A stretch of DNA of 64,000 nt from Methylibium sp. NZG. GTDB lineage: Bacteria; Pseudomonadota; Gammaproteobacteria; Burkholderiales; Burkholderiaceae_C. Where the stretch lies: positions 1 through 64,000 of the forward strand of contig LGRD01000028.1 of assembly GCA_001263235.1 (NCBI GenBank), written 5' to 3'. Numbering within the stretch: position 1 is the first letter of the stretch; each line of letters begins with the position of its first letter. Made by a program: the position numbers and the translations under genes. The notes below the pieces were generated by a model. That model made no database searches. It saw nothing but the letters and a program-made list of their open reading frames with translations, and was not told where the DNA came from. Of the stretch, positions 23,254 through 31,129 are shown in pieces.

Positions 23254-23958
23254 ATGAGCGACACCGAAGCCGACCGCGTTCGCCGGCGCTACGCGCGCCG
23301 CGTCCCGCACGACGCACGCTACAGCCTGCTCGACCCCGCCGCCCTGATGGCCTGGCAAGAACGCCAGCGCGCGCTGCTGCGCTGCTTCGCCGCTGCGGGC
23401 CTGACCGACCTGAGCACGTTGCGGCTTGTCGAGGTCGGCAGCGGCGACGGCGCCAACCTGCTCGAACTGATGCGCATCGGCTTCACGCCGCAGCACCTGG
23501 CTGGCATCGAGCTGCTGCCCGAGCGTCACGCCGCCGCGCGCGAGCGGCTGCCCGGCAGTGTGAGGCTCGCCCTCGGCGACGCGACTGCAGCGCCCTTGGC
23601 GCCCGCGGCCAGCCAGGACATCGTGCTGCAGGCCACCGTCTTCTCGTCGCTGCTCGACGACGCGTTCCAGCAGCGCCTGGCCACGGCGATGTGGACGGCG
23701 CTCAAGCCCGGCGGTGCCGTGCTGTGGTACGACTTCACCGTCGACAATCCACGCAACCGCGACGTTCGCGGCGTGCCGCTGCAGCGCGTCCGCGAGCTGT
23801 TCCCCAGCGGCACAATGCAGTCCCGGCGCGTCACGCTGGCGCCACCGATCGCGCGGGTGGTGTGTCGCGTTCACCCGTCGCTCTACACCCTGTTCAACAC
23901 GCTGCCGCTGCTGCGCACGCACGTGTTGGCGTGGATTGTCAAACCCCTTGTCGAATGA
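23254..23958 (+). CDS. SAM-dependent methyltransferase (class I)
   Basis: 234 residues. Motif I is [18 protein letters not shown] (about residues 57-74). Later come [13 protein letters not shown] and [24 protein letters not shown]. The C-terminus carries [20 protein letters not shown] and a hydrophobic tail. It may methylate a sugar of the glycan or a lipid-linked intermediate. The next gene (aminotransferase) starts inside its last codons. Confidence 0.8.
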
Positions 23959-25142
23959 CCGTCGCCGTGCCCACGCCCCCGCCTTCGCCCCTGCCATTCC
24001 TTCCGTTTGCCTTGCCCGACATCGGCGAAGAAGAGATCGCCGAGGTGGTCGACACCTTGCGCTCCGGCTGGGTCACCACCGGCCCGAAAGCACGCCGCTT
24101 CGAAGAGGATTTCGCTGCATGGCTGGGCGACCCCGGCCTGCACGCGCTGGCCGTCAACTCCGCCACCGCGGGGCTGCACCTCGCGCTCGAAGCGCTGGGC
24201 ATGGGGCCCGGCGACGAAGTCATCACCACCACCCACACCTTCACCGCCACCGCCGAGGTGGTGCGCTACCTCGGCGCCGACGTGGTGCTGGTGGACATCG
24301 ACCCGGCGACGATGTGCATCGACCCGGCGTTGGTCGAGGCGGCCATCACCCCGCGCACCAAGGCCATCGTGCCGGTGCACTACGGCGGGCTGGCGGCCGA
24401 CATGCCTGCGCTGCTCAACATCGCGAAGCGGCACGGCCTGAAGATCGTCGAAGACGCCGCGCATGCCTTGCCGGCCACGAGCGGTGGCCGACTCGTCGGT
24501 ACGCTCGGCTCCGATGCGACCGTGTTCAGCTTCTACGCCAACAAGAACATCACGACAGGTGAAGGCGGCATGGTGGTGACGCACGACGCCGCGCTCGCCG
24601 CGCGAATCAAGGTGATGCGGCTGCACGGCATCAGCCGCGACGCGTTCGACCGCTTCACGGCCAAGGTGCCGAGCTGGTACTACGAGATCGTGGCGCCCGG
24701 CTTCAAGTACAACCTGACCGACATTGCCGCCGCGCTGGGGCTGCAGCAGCTCAAGCGCGCCCACACCTTCCAGCAACGCCGCGCGCAGATCGCGAAAGGG
24801 TACGACGACGGGCTGCGGGGCCTGCCGCTGACGCTGCCGCCGCAAGCGCGGGCCGGCGACGTTCACTCTTGGCACCTGTACGTGATTCGCCTGTTGCCTG
24901 CCGCGCCGCTCACGCGCGACGCGCTGATCGAGCGGCTGTTCGCGGAGCGCATCGGCTGCAGCGTGCACTACATCCCGCTGCACCTGCAGCCGTATTGGCG
25001 CGACCGCTATCGCTTGAGCGCTGCGCAGTTCCCGCAGAGCCAGCGCGCGTTCGAGGGGCTGGTGAGCCTGCCGATCTACCCGCGCATGAGCGATGCCGAC
25101 GTGGCCCGCGTGTGTCGCGCGCTGCGCGACGCGCTGGGCTGA
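23955..25142 (+). CDS. DegT/DnrJ/EryC1/StrS-family sugar aminotransferase
   Basis: 395 residues, the family length. It has [20 protein letters not shown] near the N-terminus, then [13 protein letters not shown] and [12 protein letters not shown]. The PLP-binding lysine is Lys197 in [15 protein letters not shown]. Such enzymes use glutamate to aminate keto-sugar nucleotides, often at C4 after a CapD/PglF-type 4,6-dehydratase. The product of the WbpM-like gene at 27915-29900 would be a suitable substrate. Overlaps the methyltransferase stop by four bases. Confidence 0.92.
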
Positions 25143-25209: not shown

Positions 25210-26649
25210 GTGCTGAAGCGAACCCTCGACATCGTTGCGTCGGCCGCCGGCCTGCTGCTGCTGTCGCCGCTGATGCTGGCGATCGCTCTGGCGATCAAGC
25301 TCGACTCGCCCGGCCCGGTGTTCTTCCGCCAGGTGCGCGTCGGGCGCCACGGGCGGCCATTCCGCATCTTCAAGTTCCGCACGATGACGCAGGCGCAGGC
25401 GGCCGGTGCACCGCAGCTCACGGTCGGGGGCGACGCGCGCATCACCCGCACGGGCCGCTTCCTGCGGCGCAGCAAACTCGACGAGCTCCCTCAGCTCATC
25501 GACGTGCTGCGCGGCACGATGAGCCTGGTGGGCCCGCGGCCCGAGGTGCCGCGCTACGTCGAGCACTACCCGCCAGAGCACCGCGAGCGCGTGCTGAGCG
25601 TGCGCCCGGGCATCACCGACTTCGCGTCGGTGCACTATCGGCGAGAGAGCGAATTGCTGGCCCGCGCCGCCGACCCCGAGCGCGAGTACCTCGACGTGAT
25701 CCTGCCCTCCAAGCTGCGCTACGCGATGCACTACGTCGACAACGTGAGCGTGGCAGACGACCTGCGCGTGCTGGGGTTGACGCTGCGCACCGTGTTCGTC
25801 CCGACGTTCCCCGCTTCAAGGAGATGGCGTGCCATGAACGACAGCAAGCTGTGGGGCCGGCTCGACCGCGCCATGTCGTCGCTGCACCCGCGGCGCAACC
25901 TGTTTGCCACACTCACCGACGCGGCCACGGTGCTGGTGTGCTGGCACATCACCTACCTGTTCCGGCTCGGCTTCGAGCGCTACCAGCCCGGCCGGCCGTG
26001 GTACGACGACTACGTGTCGTTCGGCGTCGTCTTGGTGTACCTGGTGTGCCTGGCGCTCGCCGGTTCGGAGCGCAGCGTGTGGCGCTATTTCGGCTTCGAC
26101 GACCTCAAGCGCATCACCGTGGCCTGCCTGTTGGCCGGGCTCATCAGTGGTGCGGCGGTGCTGATGGCGCAACTCAGTGCCGTCGCGCGCGCGGTGCTCG
26201 TGTTGCACCCGCTGTTCTGCATCGCGGCCTTGAGCATCGTGCGCATGCTCTACCGCATGGTGTGGGAGCAGGCGCGGCAGCACGCGAACGGCCAGCAGGG
26301 CGAGCCACGCCGCGCCATCGTGCTGGGGGCGGGCGGGGCCGCGCGCCGGCTCGTTGCCGGCATCCACCTGCGCGATGGCTGGACGGTGCTCGCGCTGCTG
26401 GACGACGACCCCGCCAAGCGCGGCACCCGCGTCGGCGGCCTGCCGGTGCTGGGGCCGCTGGCCGACCTGGCGCTGCCGCACATCCATGCCGAGGCGACGC
26501 ACGTGATCGTGGCGATGCCGGGGGCGTCGGCTGAAGTGCGCGGGCAGGCCGTCGCGATGGCCCGGGAAGTGGGGCTGCTGGTGTTGACGGTACCGAGCCA
26601 GCATGAGCTGCAAGAGGAGGCTGGGCAGGTATTCGATCGAAAGGCCTGA
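25210..26649 (+). CDS. Phosphoglycosyl transferase fused in frame to a truncated CapD-type membrane/CoA-binding domain
   Basis: 479 residues from a GTG. Residues 1-200 form a complete small phosphoglycosyl transferase: MLKRTLDIVASAAGLLLLSP, FFRQVRVGRHGRPFRIFKFRTM, and DELPQLIDVLRGTMSLVGPRP. It would load a sugar phosphate on undecaprenyl phosphate. Residues from about 209 (an internal ATG at 25834, with AAGGAG shortly before it) match the N-terminal half of CapD/WbpM proteins: four spans, then a Rossmann fold with AIVLGAGGAARRLV. The frame stops at VPSQHELQEEAG, just before the catalytic dehydratase domain should begin. The neighbouring AAA gene probably marks the break. Confidence 0.8.
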   Translation: MLKRTLDIVASAAGLLLLSPLMLAIALAIKLDSPGPVFFRQVRVGRHGRPFRIFKFRTMTQAQAAGAPQLTVGGDARITRTGRFLRRSKLDELPQLIDVLRGTMSLVGPRPEVPRYVEHYPPEHRERVLSVRPGITDFASVHYRRESELLARAADPEREYLDVILPSKLRYAMHYVDNVSVADDLRVLGLTLRTVFVPTFPASRRWRAMNDSKLWGRLDRAMSSLHPRRNLFATLTDAATVLVCWHITYLFRLGFERYQPGRPWYDDYVSFGVVLVYLVCLALAGSERSVWRYFGFDDLKRITVACLLAGLISGAAVLMAQLSAVARAVLVLHPLFCIAALSIVRMLYRMVWEQARQHANGQQGEPRRAIVLGAGGAARRLVAGIHLRDGWTVLALLDDDPAKRGTRVGGLPVLGPLADLALPHIHAEATHVIVAMPGASAEVRGQAVAMAREVGLLVLTVPSQHELQEEAGQVFDRKA

Positions 26650-26719: not shown

Positions 26720-27895
26720 ATGTTGCCTCGCCACGCCACGCCCATCCTGCGGGAGTTGGCGCGTGGATTCCCCGTCGTCGCCATCACCGGGCCGCGCCAA
26801 TCGGGCAAGACGACGCTGGCGCGGCAGACGTTTCCGCAGCTGCCTTACGTCAACCTCGAAGACCTGGACACGCGTGGGCTGGCCTTGTCCGACCCGCGTC
26901 GCTTTCTGGCGCGGCACGCCGACGGCGCCGTCTTCGACGAGGTTCAGCGCGCGCCAGCGTTGATGTCCTACCTGCTCGACGTGGCCGATGCCGACGCGCG
27001 CATGGGCCGCTTTGTGCTGACGGGGTCTCAGCAGTTCGGCCTGATGGACAGGATCACCCAGTCGCTGGCGGGCCGCGTTGGCATGCTCACCTTGCTGCCG
27101 CTGGGCAATGCCGAGCTTGCCGCCGCCGAGCCACCGGCCCGCGCGGCCAAGGCCGCAGACCTTGAGCAGCGGCTGTGGCGTGGCGGGTTTCCGGCGTTGT
27201 ACGCGCAGCACCGGCACGTACAGCCGGCCCAGTGGTTCGCGGCCTACGTTGCGACCTACATCGAGCGCGACGTGCGCCAGGTGCTTAACGTCGGTAACCT
27301 GCTGACCTTCCAGCGCTTCGTCTCCATGTGCGCAGCCCGCAGCGGCCAGTTGTTGAACCTGCACAGCCTGGCAAGCGATTGCGGCATCAGCCAGCCAACG
27401 GCTCGCCAGTGGCTGACGGTGCTACAGGCCAGCCACCTCGTCACGCTGCTTCCGCCGCACTTCCGCAACTTCGGCAAGCGCTTGGTCAAGACGCCCAAGT
27501 TGTACTTTCTCGACAGCGGGTTGCTGTGCCATCTGCTGCGCATCGCCAGCCCCGACGACCTGCATGCCCATGCGATGCGCGGGGCCGTCTTCGAGACCTG
27601 GGTCGTCGGCGAGACGCTCAAGCACCGCCACAACCTGGGCTTGCCCGCCGACCTGTACTTCTGGCGCGACAACCATGGCCTGGAGATAGACCTCGTCTTC
27701 GAGCACGGCTCACGCCTGCATGCGGTGGAGTGCAAGTCGGGCACGACCTACAGCCCGAGCTGGCTGGAGCCGGCCCGAAAGTGGCGCGCGCTGGTCGGCG
27801 CGGCGGCGGCCGATCCGGTCCTGGTGTACGGCGGCGACCAAGGGCACCGCGGCGCCGATGATGAAGTGATTGGCTGGCGATCCGTGGGCCGCTGA
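26720..27895 (+). CDS. AAA ATPase with DUF4143 C-terminal domain
   Basis: 391 residues. Walker A is GPRQSGKTTLA (residues 24-34). Walker B-like DGAVFDEVQRAP and the sensor FVLTGSQQFGLM follow (AAA_14). The C-terminal DUF4143 part carries GLEIDLVFEHGSRLHAVECKSG, a D...ExK arrangement like restriction-type nucleases. These two-domain proteins are common accessory genes of unknown function, often discussed with toxin-antitoxin or mobile DNA. It lies between two convergent polysaccharide blocks, right after a truncated gene, and 19 bases from the convergent wbpM-like stop. Confidence 0.9.
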   Translation: MLPRHATPILRELARGFPVVAITGPRQSGKTTLARQTFPQLPYVNLEDLDTRGLALSDPRRFLARHADGAVFDEVQRAPALMSYLLDVADADARMGRFVLTGSQQFGLMDRITQSLAGRVGMLTLLPLGNAELAAAEPPARAAKAADLEQRLWRGGFPALYAQHRHVQPAQWFAAYVATYIERDVRQVLNVGNLLTFQRFVSMCAARSGQLLNLHSLASDCGISQPTARQWLTVLQASHLVTLLPPHFRNFGKRLVKTPKLYFLDSGLLCHLLRIASPDDLHAHAMRGAVFETWVVGETLKHRHNLGLPADLYFWRDNHGLEIDLVFEHGSRLHAVECKSGTTYSPSWLEPARKWRALVGAAAADPVLVYGGDQGHRGADDEVIGWRSVGR

Positions 27896-27914: not shown

Positions 27915-29900
27915 TCAGCGTGCCTGCAGCGAGGCAGCCACTTCCCGGTTCACCTCGTCCGCGGGTCGGAACTCGGGCACGACGTTCCTGATCTGGCGCA
28001 GCATCGCATCGGGCTGGTTCGCGTCGCAGGCACTGCGCAGCGACTCGATCATCTTGTCCAGCAGCACCGGCTCGATGTGCCGTTCGCGCGCGCACAGGAT
28101 GCGCGGGTGGCCGCTGGGCACCACGTCGTCGCCGATCAGCAGCTCCTCGAACAGCTTTTCGCCTGGGCGCAGGCCGACGTACTTGATCTCGATCTCGCCA
28201 TCCGGGTGCTCGGCCGACTTCTCGGTCACACCCGACAGGTGGATGATCGAGCGCGCCAAATCGGCGATGCGCACCGGCTCGCCCATGTCGAGCACGAACA
28301 CCTCGCCGCCCTGCGCCATCGCGCCAGCCTGGATGACGAGTTGCGCCGCCTCCGGAATGAGCATGAAGTAGCGAATGATGTCCGGGTGCGTGATCGTGAC
28401 GGGACCGCCCGCCTGGATCTGCTTCTTGAACAGCGGCACCACCGAGCCCGACGAGCCGAGCACGTTGCCGAAGCGAACCATCGAGAAGACGGTCTTGCCG
28501 TCGGCCGCGCCCCACGGACGCGCTGCGGCAAGCGCCGCTGATCCTGGCGCCGGGCCAGCGGGCGAGGCGGTGTGGGCCTGCGCCCGCAGCGCTCCGGCCT
28601 GAAAGATCAGCTCCGCCGCACGCTTGGAGGCGCCCATCACATTGGTCGGCCGCACCGCCTTGTCGGTAGACACGAGCACGCACGTCTCGACGCCACAACG
28701 CAGCGCCGCACGCGCCACCGCGAGCGAGCCAAACACGTTGTTGCGCAGGCCCTGCTGCATGTTGCTCTCGACCAGCGGCACGTGCTTGTAGGCAGCGGCG
28801 TGGTAGACGGTATGCACGCCATGTTCCCGCATCGCGGCTTCGACCAACGCATCGTCCAGCACCGAGCCCAGGCAGGCCACGAGCTCCACGCCGCGGTCGG
28901 CATCGCGCAACTCGTGGTCGATGGCGTAGAGGCCGAACTCGGAGTGGTCCAGCAGCACCAGCCGCTTGGGCTTTTGAGTGATGATCTGGCGGCACAACTC
29001 CCCGCCGATGGAGCCGCCTGAGCCCGTCACCATCACCACCTTGCCAGTGATGTTGCGCGAGAACAGGGCCGGTTGCGGCGGCACCGGGTCGCGGCCCAAC
29101 AGGTCCGCCACGTCGACCTCGCGGATGTCGGAGACGCTGGCCTGGCCGTTCACCATGTGCGACAGGCTGGGAAGGATCTTCACCGGCAGGCCTGCATGCT
29201 CGACCTTGGCGATGAGCTGCCGGCGCTGCGCCGTCTTGGCCGACGGCACCGCGAGCACGATCTGCGCCACGTCATGGCGCAGGATGGCTTCCTGCAATGC
29301 CCCGGGTGGGTAGACCTTCATGCCGGCAACAGTCTTTCCGTGCAGCACCGATCGGTCGTCCAAAAAACAGACCGCCTGGTAGTCTGAGCTCAGCTGCATG
29401 GTTTGCGCGAGTTGGGCGCCGGCATCACCAGCACCGTAGATCGCGGTTCGCACGCGTGGGCGGCCCGCTCGCTTCAGGTTTTGGCGCAAGAGCACCCGTG
29501 CAATGAAGCGCGACGTGATGACGTAGGTGAAGGCAACGAACCAGTAGATCAGGAATGCCGAACGCGGGATCACATGTACGTCAAACGCGAGGGCCAGGCA
29601 GAACATGACAAGCACAGCAGCCGCCAGCGCAAGGCTCGACGCGGCGATCACGCGCAAGTCGATGTAACGCACGACTGTGCGGTACAGGCCGGCCATGCCA
29701 AGGATGGGCAGCGTCAGCCAGCCGATGACCAGCAGCACCCACGGCGCCGTTTGTGCCGCCTCCGACACCGATCCCAGGCGCATCGTGACCGCAGCGAACA
29801 CGAAGAGTGGCAGGAAGACAGCGTCCGCGCCAATCATCACGGCCAGCTTTGAGGTGGGGGACAGGGCCGCGAGGCGCTGTCCTATGTGCAACGGTGTCAT
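27915..29900 (-). CDS. WbpM/CapD/FlaA1-type membrane nucleotide-sugar 4,6-dehydratase
   Basis: 661 residues. Four N-terminal spans (residues about 18-135) lead to a first Rossmann fold (RTAIYGAGDAGAQLAQ). The catalytic SDR domain starts near residue 288 with KVVMVTGSGGSIGGELCRQI. It has VLVSTDKAVRPTNVMGASK, where Met replaces the usual catalytic Tyr (SMK triad), as in WbpM. Such enzymes turn UDP-GlcNAc into UDP-4-keto-6-deoxy sugars. About 25-30 Ala/Pro-rich residues (around 437-466) are inserted after AAELIFQAG. It is the last gene of the long minus-strand block. Confidence 0.92.
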   Translation of the reverse strand: MTPLHIGQRLAALSPTSKLAVMIGADAVFLPLFVFAAVTMRLGSVSEAAQTAPWVLLVIGWLTLPILGMAGLYRTVVRYIDLRVIAASSLALAAAVLVMFCLALAFDVHVIPRSAFLIYWFVAFTYVITSRFIARVLLRQNLKRAGRPRVRTAIYGAGDAGAQLAQTMQLSSDYQAVCFLDDRSVLHGKTVAGMKVYPPGALQEAILRHDVAQIVLAVPSAKTAQRRQLIAKVEHAGLPVKILPSLSHMVNGQASVSDIREVDVADLLGRDPVPPQPALFSRNITGKVVMVTGSGGSIGGELCRQIITQKPKRLVLLDHSEFGLYAIDHELRDADRGVELVACLGSVLDDALVEAAMREHGVHTVYHAAAYKHVPLVESNMQQGLRNNVFGSLAVARAALRCGVETCVLVSTDKAVRPTNVMGASKRAAELIFQAGALRAQAHTASPAGPAPGSAALAAARPWGAADGKTVFSMVRFGNVLGSSGSVVPLFKKQIQAGGPVTITHPDIIRYFMLIPEAAQLVIQAGAMAQGGEVFVLDMGEPVRIADLARSIIHLSGVTEKSAEHPDGEIEIKYVGLRPGEKLFEELLIGDDVVPSGHPRILCARERHIEPVLLDKMIESLRSACDANQPDAMLRQIRNVVPEFRPADEVNREVAASLQAR

Positions 29901-30067
29901 ATCTGTGCTGCTCCGATCAGCTCGAAGCTGAATGGGCGGAGTTGTCTCCCCGGGCCGGCATGATAGTGATCGAATTGGCAGATGGCGACCATGAGACCCC
30001 GCTTCAGCCCCCGGGGCCTTTGGAATTCGCGAATTGTTACCTGTCCGCCCCAAGCCTCCGAACGGCT

Positions 30068-31129
30068 TCAGCGACCAGGGGCCTGCGATTGGCCCGCGCG
30101 GTCCCCCGCGCGAAGGCCAAACGCGAGCCAGACCAGCGGTAAGTAGGCCAATGCGGTGGCGGCAGCGCCGTCGAGCCGCTTCGTCGCCACGAGCACCGCC
30201 AGCGGCAACAACCAACCCAGGTTGATGGCGCCGACGGCGAGCGAGACTTTGCCGTGCGAGCCTATTCGCCTGGCGGCGTATTGATAGGCGTGGCTGCGGT
30301 GGGCTTGATGAAACTTCTCGCCGCGCCGAACGCGGCGCACCAGCGTGGTCGTTGCGTCCACCACGAAACAGCCGAGCAGGATGAACCAGCACCAAAACAC
30401 CTGCGTTGCATTCTGAGCAGTCCAAAGCGACAACACCCCGAGGACGAAGCCCATGAAGCCACTGCCTGCGTCGCCCATGAAGATCCGCGCCGGTGGCGTG
30501 TTCCAAACCAGGAAGCCCGCAGCACAGGCAGCGAATGCAAAGCACAGCGGCCACCGCGGGTCGCCGGTGGCGAGCCACCAGCACAGTGCACCACCCAGCG
30601 CCACGGTGACCGCTTCAACGCCTGCAATGGCATCCACGCCGTCCATGAAGTTGTACAGATTGACCATCCACACGAGGTACACGGCGGCCAGCGCCAAGCC
30701 TGTCCAACCCAGGTTCACATCGAATCCGAACAGGGGCACGGGTGGAATGCCACCCATCAACCACAACGACATCAGAGACGCTAGGCAGTGCGCGCCAAAG
30801 CGCCAACGCGCGGCCAGGGGCCTTCGGTCGTCGAGGAAACCGACCAGCGCTACAAGCAGCCCACCGCCGCTGATAGCGAGCACCATTTGGACCGGGATGC
30901 TGCCAAGGGCTCCCAGCGCACAGACCAGCGCCACGAAAGGGAACACGACTCCGAGCCCTCCGCCGCGGGGGGTGGGCACCGTGTGAGAACTTCTTTCGTT
31001 CGGGTGATCCAGCAGCGAACTTGCCAGCGCGTGGCGGCGCACCCGCCCCGTCAGCCACCAGCTTGCTGCCATGCCGACTGGCACCAAGAGCAGGGCCAGA
31101 GCTAACGGCTCGCGCCAGACGAGGCTCAT
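30068..31129 (-). CDS. wbpL: WecA/WbpL-type polyprenyl-phosphate sugar-phosphate transferase
   Basis: 353 residues, about ten to eleven spans. Family motifs: HPNERSSHTVPTPRGGGLGV, VGFLDDRRPL, VNLYNFMDGVDAIAGVEA, and NTPPARIFMGDAGSGFMGF, followed by HRSHAYQYAARR. It should start O-unit assembly by moving a 2-acetamido sugar phosphate to undecaprenyl phosphate. It pairs with the epimerase/reductase gene upstream by a four-base overlap, as wbpV-wbpL do in Pseudomonas. With the phosphoglycosyl transferase at 25210 the window holds two different initiating enzymes. Confidence 0.9.
   Translation of the reverse strand: MSLVWREPLALALLLVPVGMAASWWLTGRVRRHALASSLLDHPNERSSHTVPTPRGGGLGVVFPFVALVCALGALGSIPVQMVLAISGGGLLVALVGFLDDRRPLAARWRFGAHCLASLMSLWLMGGIPPVPLFGFDVNLGWTGLALAAVYLVWMVNLYNFMDGVDAIAGVEAVTVALGGALCWWLATGDPRWPLCFAFAACAAGFLVWNTPPARIFMGDAGSGFMGFVLGVLSLWTAQNATQVFWCWFILLGCFVVDATTTLVRRVRRGEKFHQAHRSHAYQYAARRIGSHGKVSLAVGAINLGWLLPLAVLVATKRLDGAAATALAYLPLVWLAFGLRAGDRAGQSQAPGR

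Follow-up and report, generated by a model that had tools for sequence, protein, structure and literature searches.

A conserved, domain-permuted large phosphoglycosyl transferase with a probable second product nested in its gene

The stretch of DNA analysed here (64,000 nucleotides of Methylibium sp. NZG, contig LGRD01000028.1; called the window below) contains a gene in which, as read from the sequences, a phosphoglycosyl transferase (PGT) and the N-terminal half of a CapD protein are joined in one frame, the dehydratase domain of CapD being gone. Together with its relatives, this gene appears to represent a functional, rearranged type of large PGT, with reversed domain order, rebuilt from the N-terminal half of a dehydratase. 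A conserved internal start codon makes it a probable case of one gene specifying two proteins in a central glycan pathway. The reading that we favour, a functional family of rearranged large PGTs of single origin in which one gene gives two products, is assigned a probability of roughly 0.65.

The fused gene (25210–26649, + strand, as for all features below unless stated) is a 479-amino-acid frame with a GTG start and without an internal stop codon, assigned from the open reading frame, Pfam and relatives. Pfam matched Bac_transf (PF02397) to residues 3–196 (E = 3e-60), which places the PGT catalytic domain at 25216–25797, and CoA_binding_3 (PF13727) to residues 298–438 (E = 6e-9); Polysacc_synt_2 gave no Pfam match in the 479-residue protein. 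Four long helices (residues 229–359; 25894–26286) are read as transmembrane (TM) from an AlphaFold model and from PF13727 beginning at residue 298, and a Rossmann-type domain with a GAG motif (residues 365–471; 26302–26622) is supported by Pfam, the model and a structure match. An internal Shine-Dalgarno-like AAGGAG (25818–25823), assessed by motif search, shuffles and column ranking, is separated by 10 bases from an ATG at 25834, where a second product of 271 amino acids, containing the four TM helices and the Rossmann domain, is predicted to start (25834–26649). Among 14 fused proteins, PF02397 was found in all and PF13727, at E 1e-3, in 12, the other two falling short; the Pfam scan detected the dehydratase domain (PF02719/Polysacc_synt_2) in none of the 14, and it is present in the unfused relative L010. 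The pair D91-E92, which we take to be the catalytic dyad of the PGT, is invariant in 14/14 fused proteins and aligns with LDELPQL of PglC and WbaP. The in-frame PGT–CapD fusion described in an earlier note on this DNA was thus borne out by a frame that is open both in the window and in relatives, as was the ending of the CapD part before the dehydratase domain: the piece missing is the C-terminal catalytic domain of CapD.

When each half was scanned alone, the C-terminal half aligned with positions 2–227 and the N-terminal half with positions 256–440 of the 445 of TIGR03025; the corresponding values were 2–234 and 262–448 of 453 for the WcaJ model, and 3–231 and 257–449 of 456 for the WbaP model. 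The order of parts in the fused product is therefore PGT–TM–Rossmann, against TM–Rossmann–PGT in WbaP and WcaJ. The module formed by the C-terminal half is 46–55% identical to CapD proteins of sister genomes, its matches to WbaP-type models being much weaker; since it is nearest to CapD, the composition of a large PGT would have been reached anew from a dehydratase. The whole protein scored 298.1 against NCBIfam TIGR03025, narrowly passing the cut-off of 295.55, so automatic annotation may hide the permutation behind the name of an ordinary large PGT.

An AlphaFold model (pLDDT 89.3, pTM 0.73) contained a PGT fold, the four long helices and the Rossmann domain, with a low-confidence linker at residues 204–208. 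The alignment behind it had 79 rows, of which 16 were fused and the other 63 were PGT or CapN alone, so there is little information behind the position of one half relative to the other; an earlier model from 14 sequences was weak (pLDDT 64). The PGT part superimposed on WbaP (8t53) with Z 20.8 and 1.3 Å over 152 residues, and on PglC (8e37) with Z 18.7, while the best solved match to residues 365–471 was 3nkl (Z 14.9), with Rex repressors next. For the helix bundle VIA-align returned almost no solved match, which is not read as absence of a known fold, and the dimer hairpin of WbaP was not evident in the AlphaFold monomer model. The suggestion that the fusion sets a sugar-binding membrane domain beside the transferase fits this architecture of PGT, TM helices and PF13727 Rossmann module.

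The uninterrupted fusion was found in 13 of 399 genomes of the family of the window, its own included, distributed over ten genera. The fused open frames measure 475–513 amino acids, except for one of 702 that extends upstream. In a further 16 family genomes the match (E < 1e-110) was interrupted in its frame by one or two stops, and all those 16 loci continue into a dehydratase domain. A separate collection of named records yielded nine fused loci, one of them cut by a contig end, including those of Rubrivivax rivuli, Paucibacter oligotrophus, a Piscinibacter MAG and Beta proteobacterium AAP65; at least three of the nine appear to duplicate genomes in the 399-genome family sample. Whole-length matches in the phylum sample (398 genomes, E 1e-50) came solely from G000 and G090, the remaining matches spanning little beyond the PGT part, and the same two genomes were the only ones with stop-free whole-length matches in the order sample (399 genomes, E 1e-60); the genus-level search comprised one genome, that of the window. 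Before counting, L033, L038 and L039 were dropped as duplicates of L082, L085 and L081, as were the repeat fetches L044, L053, L055–L061 and L063, the equivalence of L055 with L034 and of L059 with L037 being judged by equal identities. The close pairs L003/L054 and L008/L037 were both kept, and L036 ends inside the fused gene at a contig end. A fused gene 74% identical to that of the window (L032) was present in a MAG titled Rhodobacteraceae bacterium PARR1; it clusters among the fused sequences of the family to which the window belongs, and the contig is perhaps misbinned or misnamed.

In 34 of 37 unfused loci the PGT gene lies directly before a full CapD gene; one set of 21 such loci accounted for 18 with this arrangement and for three without it (L018, L025 and L027). 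The PGT ends in its own stop codon in the 26 unfused loci inspected, and CapD starts anywhere from about that stop to some 135 bases on, in the same or another frame. The proposal in the earlier note that the second part descends from a separate gene is supported by this arrangement, the unfused relatives mostly keeping two neighbouring genes, PGT and then full CapD. Fused and unfused forms, distinguished by frame length and stops, coexist within several genera (e.g. g90, g91, g100 and g127); together with the single group formed by the fused genes (see below), this suggests that the locus has been exchanged between lineages.

Quick trees, drawn with a midpoint root, were built for both parts. 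In the CapN tree a single branch separated the 17 fused rows from the 35 unfused ones (SH-aLRT 100), and in the PGT tree the fused rows formed one group against 39 unfused rows (support 93). All seven rows of the PGT tree that come from other families of the order are unfused, which is why the fused condition is regarded as derived. A single evolutionary event seems to underlie the fusion, and the two-gene state, also seen outside the family, would be ancestral. Values of dN/dS (NG86) were obtained for the 22 closest pairs and three parts of the gene; 56 of the 66 values fell within 0.05–0.4, with 3 below and 7 above, the highest being about 0.66 at pS 0.23–0.34. Between L003 and L054 (pS 0.04–0.06, pN 0–0.005) there is nearly no amino-acid change. 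Both halves, the C-terminal one included, thus bear the signature of purifying selection and not of decay.

The junction of the two halves was analysed for an internal start, the motif being defined as a complement of the anti-Shine-Dalgarno sequence 4–11 bases before a start codon. The pattern GGCTGGATCACCTCCTT, which we take to be that of the 16S 3′ end, was found once in the organism's own genome. At the junction, every one of the 17 fused genes has a start codon preceded by a motif of at least 4 bases, which in 11 genes extends to at least 5 bases, while 20,000 rounds of synonymous shuffling gave a mean of 3.4 genes (maximum 9) and 0.77 genes (maximum 5), respectively. Other in-frame ATGs of the same genes were preceded by such motifs in 28/191 cases (at least 4 bases) and 3/191 cases (at least 5 bases), and unfused CapD starts, for which the nearest start codon was taken, in 3/36 (4 bases) and 0/36 (5 bases). 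In a control that keeps relatedness, the junction ranked first of 464 alignment columns for motifs of at least 4 bases, and 16 of the 17 rows have a start codon at this column (209). The junction is the sole column that combines a motif in at least 80% of rows with a start codon in the majority of rows; start codons are few at columns 167 and 417, where 15 rows have the motif. Motifs of at least 5 bases were present in 12/17 rows at columns 115–117 versus 11 at the junction; at column 461, 12/16 rows contain a motif of at least 4 bases and 11 have ATG, GTG or TTG. The motifs at columns 115–117, 167, 417 and 461 are put down to conserved residues.

The strength of the signal differed between rows. 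A Trp-Ser pair in L008, L037 and L062 renders a chance motif likely (null 0.52), the motif of L009 is AGGTG (null 0.86), and the null for the window gene itself is 0.29; the ATG used for L012 lies two codons before the one shared by the other rows and was chosen after the alignment had been seen. For nine lineages with less than 72% mutual identity the joint null was 7e-8, if they are independent. The amino acids at the junction vary (e.g. R, W, K or T followed by R, S or V) while the bases are retained. RNA folding at the internal start was weaker than the gene mean in 17/17 genes and weaker than in synonymous shuffles in 12/17 (not so in 5/17); the mean z was +0.50 at internal starts versus −0.33 at 295 control sites (P = 0.002, the rows being non-independent). 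The earlier note took the internal ATG and its AAGGAG as a hint that the second part was once its own gene. The pair does not look like a relic, a motif with a start codon being conserved in 17/17 fused genes, and inheritance of the motif from the ancestral CapD start was rejected, as it precedes only 3/36 unfused starts. The simplest account seems to be that the second translation start arose with the fusion, the coupling of the two neighbouring genes then being lost.

The gene directly upstream encodes a DegT/DnrJ aminotransferase (23955–25142). Such an aminotransferase, assigned to DegT by Pfam, lies at this position in 14/14 other fused loci (in L032 in part, with 55% identity), and likewise in the unfused loci L088 and L089. 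Downstream, on the − strand, lies a second, intact CapD with its dehydratase domain, CapD-B (27915–29900, the start being the likely one); its frame is open for about 230 codons further upstream (27915–30584, 899 amino acids), probably an effect of high G+C. CapD-B was present in 16/16 fused genomes tested versus 0/20 unfused ones. Its identity over the first matched stretch was 55–70% in the 15 other fused genomes (E < 1e-145), against 35–44% in the 20 unfused genomes, where the CapD-B query matched at the place of their own CapD and with 50–70% in the conserved dehydratase stretch; G786, a fused MAG, gave an additional CapD hit, with 37% over that first stretch. Since the fusion arose once, this association counts as one event and not as sixteen. 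CapD-B faces the fusion from downstream in 12/14 other fused loci, the two exceptions being L036, which ends before it, and L035, where it is located beyond the sequence retrieved. Two fused genomes contain, in the same region, a second PGT that shares about 45% identity with the fused one (L084:16343-16879 and L086:11705-12286), coordinates being as printed in the locus listing, where some loci are turned round.

Between the fusion and CapD-B the window contains an AAA_14/DUF4143 ATPase gene (26720–27895), preceded by an AT-rich stretch. Relatives with 38–41% identity occupy the corresponding position in L081 and a different one within the cluster in L034, as if the gene were mobile; none was found in the remaining 12 of the 14 other fused loci, one of which, L036, breaks off within the fused gene. 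Truncation of CapD by this gene was rejected, a relative lying directly 3′ of the fusion solely in L081.

Several other explanations of the fused gene were weighed. The earlier note had considered a decaying remnant, and the missing dehydratase domain would suit this, as would the ATPase gene of mobile look directly 3′ of the fusion in the window. However, the same fusion is present in 16 genomes and both its halves are under purifying selection; the C-terminal half occurs in ten genera with dN/dS mostly 0.05–0.4, and the ATPase has a relative in only 2/14 other fused loci, directly after the fusion in one. A fused gene with the same truncation is thus under normal selection in relatives, and a decaying remnant or an assembly error is extremely improbable. 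A sequencing error was rejected, the same stop-free fusion being found in many genomes. More serious is the case in which only the fusion protein is made and the motif is a relic of the CapD start, a chance match, or a site of ribosome pausing between the two membrane domains. No stop codon separates the halves, so the fusion is made whenever the PGT is translated, and Shine-Dalgarno-like motifs do result elsewhere from conserved residues (columns 115–117, 167, 417 and 461, in 12–15 of 16–17 rows), with GTG-type codons at column 461 in 11/16 rows and at column 117 in 8/17. Even so, the motif is rare in unfused relatives (3/36) and therefore no relic of their type of start, the residues of the junction vary while the bases stay, the junction alone pairs a frequent motif with a start codon (16/17), and reduced RNA folding suits initiation better than pausing, all of which makes a fusion-only gene rather unlikely.

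The remaining alternatives concern what the module does. It might mainly dock the PGT on the membrane half of CapD-B, channelling the dehydratase product through the DegT aminotransferase to the PGT. The distribution of CapD-B (16/16 fused, 0/20 unfused genomes) and the gene order (CapD-B downstream and facing the fusion in 12/14 loci, the aminotransferase directly upstream in 14/14) would be expected under such a role; yet the N-half of CapD-B and CapN are about 25% identical, which leaves hetero-pairing uncertain, and in L035 CapD-B is outside the fetched stretch while L036 ends inside the gene. We consider docking as the main role unlikely. The protein would instead be a bifunctional enzyme if the Rossmann domain had a redox or sugar-modifying activity of its own beside the PGT, as the deposition of 3nkl, the best match to residues 365–471 (Z 14.9), as a UDP-D-quinovosamine 4-dehydrogenase might suggest. 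That name is the depositor's label, though, the domain is by family the module found at the N terminus of CapD and large-PGT proteins and lies apart from their catalytic domains, and the dehydratase domain is absent in 14/14 fused proteins; a bifunctional enzyme is very unlikely.

According to the study of WbaP (PMC10942596), the PF13727 domain provides the majority of contacts in the dimer and binds uridine nucleotides, and it was proposed to regulate the PGT. For EpsZ, modelling and expression tests led to the proposal that a response regulator activates this large PGT by favouring the dimer (PMC12802240). Under the favoured reading, that of a rearranged large PGT whose gene gives two products, the PGT half would carry out the first step towards a surface polysaccharide by transferring a sugar-1-phosphate to undecaprenyl phosphate, while the attached module might keep the PGT oligomeric and act as a sensor of uridine nucleotides, in line with the proposal for WbaP. 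Ribosomes would also initiate at the internal ATG, giving the module by itself (271 amino acids), which may join the full-length chain and set its ratio, activity or docking to CapD-B; the dehydratase step would be carried out by CapD-B or another dehydratase. For the fuller version, in which a large PGT was remade by moving the membrane and nucleotide-sensing module of a CapD dehydratase to the other end of a small PGT, an internal ribosome-binding site arose simultaneously, and the ratio of free module tunes the start of polysaccharide synthesis, we regard the chances as even.

The sharing of an N-terminal module by large PGTs and PglF-like dehydratases was called 'puzzling' in the WbaP study, since the two enzymes are functionally unrelated (PMC10942596). 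The fused family offers a natural experiment on this question, the module having been freed from the dehydratase, joined to a PGT and maintained by selection, which argues for a function of its own and makes the question testable in environmental bacteria. Under the fuller version given above, the module would be a transferable regulatory part common to PGTs and dehydratases. The domain-permuted large PGT itself is real and conserved, and its nested second product probable.

A permuted PGT fusion of this kind was not found in the papers searched; the classification of PGT fusions by O'Toole 2021 (PNAS; via PMC10942596) may mention one. The Bi-PGT, defined in the WbaP study by an extra functional domain at either end of the PGT core (PMC10942596), includes the fused protein by virtue of the C-terminal module in the window gene and its fused relatives. 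With large PGTs such as WbaP and WcaJ it shares three parts, the four-TM bundle, the PF13727 domain and the PGT catalytic domain; it differs in having the PGT first, where in those proteins the TM helices and PF13727 are N-terminal to it, and in the conserved start motif at the junction, a feature of the fused genes. The catalytic domain is common to the small PGT PglC (35% identity to C. concisus PglC over 170 aligned residues), which consists of the catalytic core only, while the fused protein adds a 271-residue module of four helices and a Rossmann domain. The UDP-sugar 4,6-dehydratases CapD/WbpM/PglF are the apparent source of the C-terminal half, PF02719 being missing in the fused proteins. 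Genes within genes provide a further parallel: internal in-frame starts were reported to give a free C-terminal part in RpnL/RpnS, where it binds the long form (PMC10327210), and in Cas11b (PMC11899642). The separate translation of a C-terminal part is what is proposed for the fused gene, with the difference that here the second product is predicted and its start seems to have come with a gene fusion.
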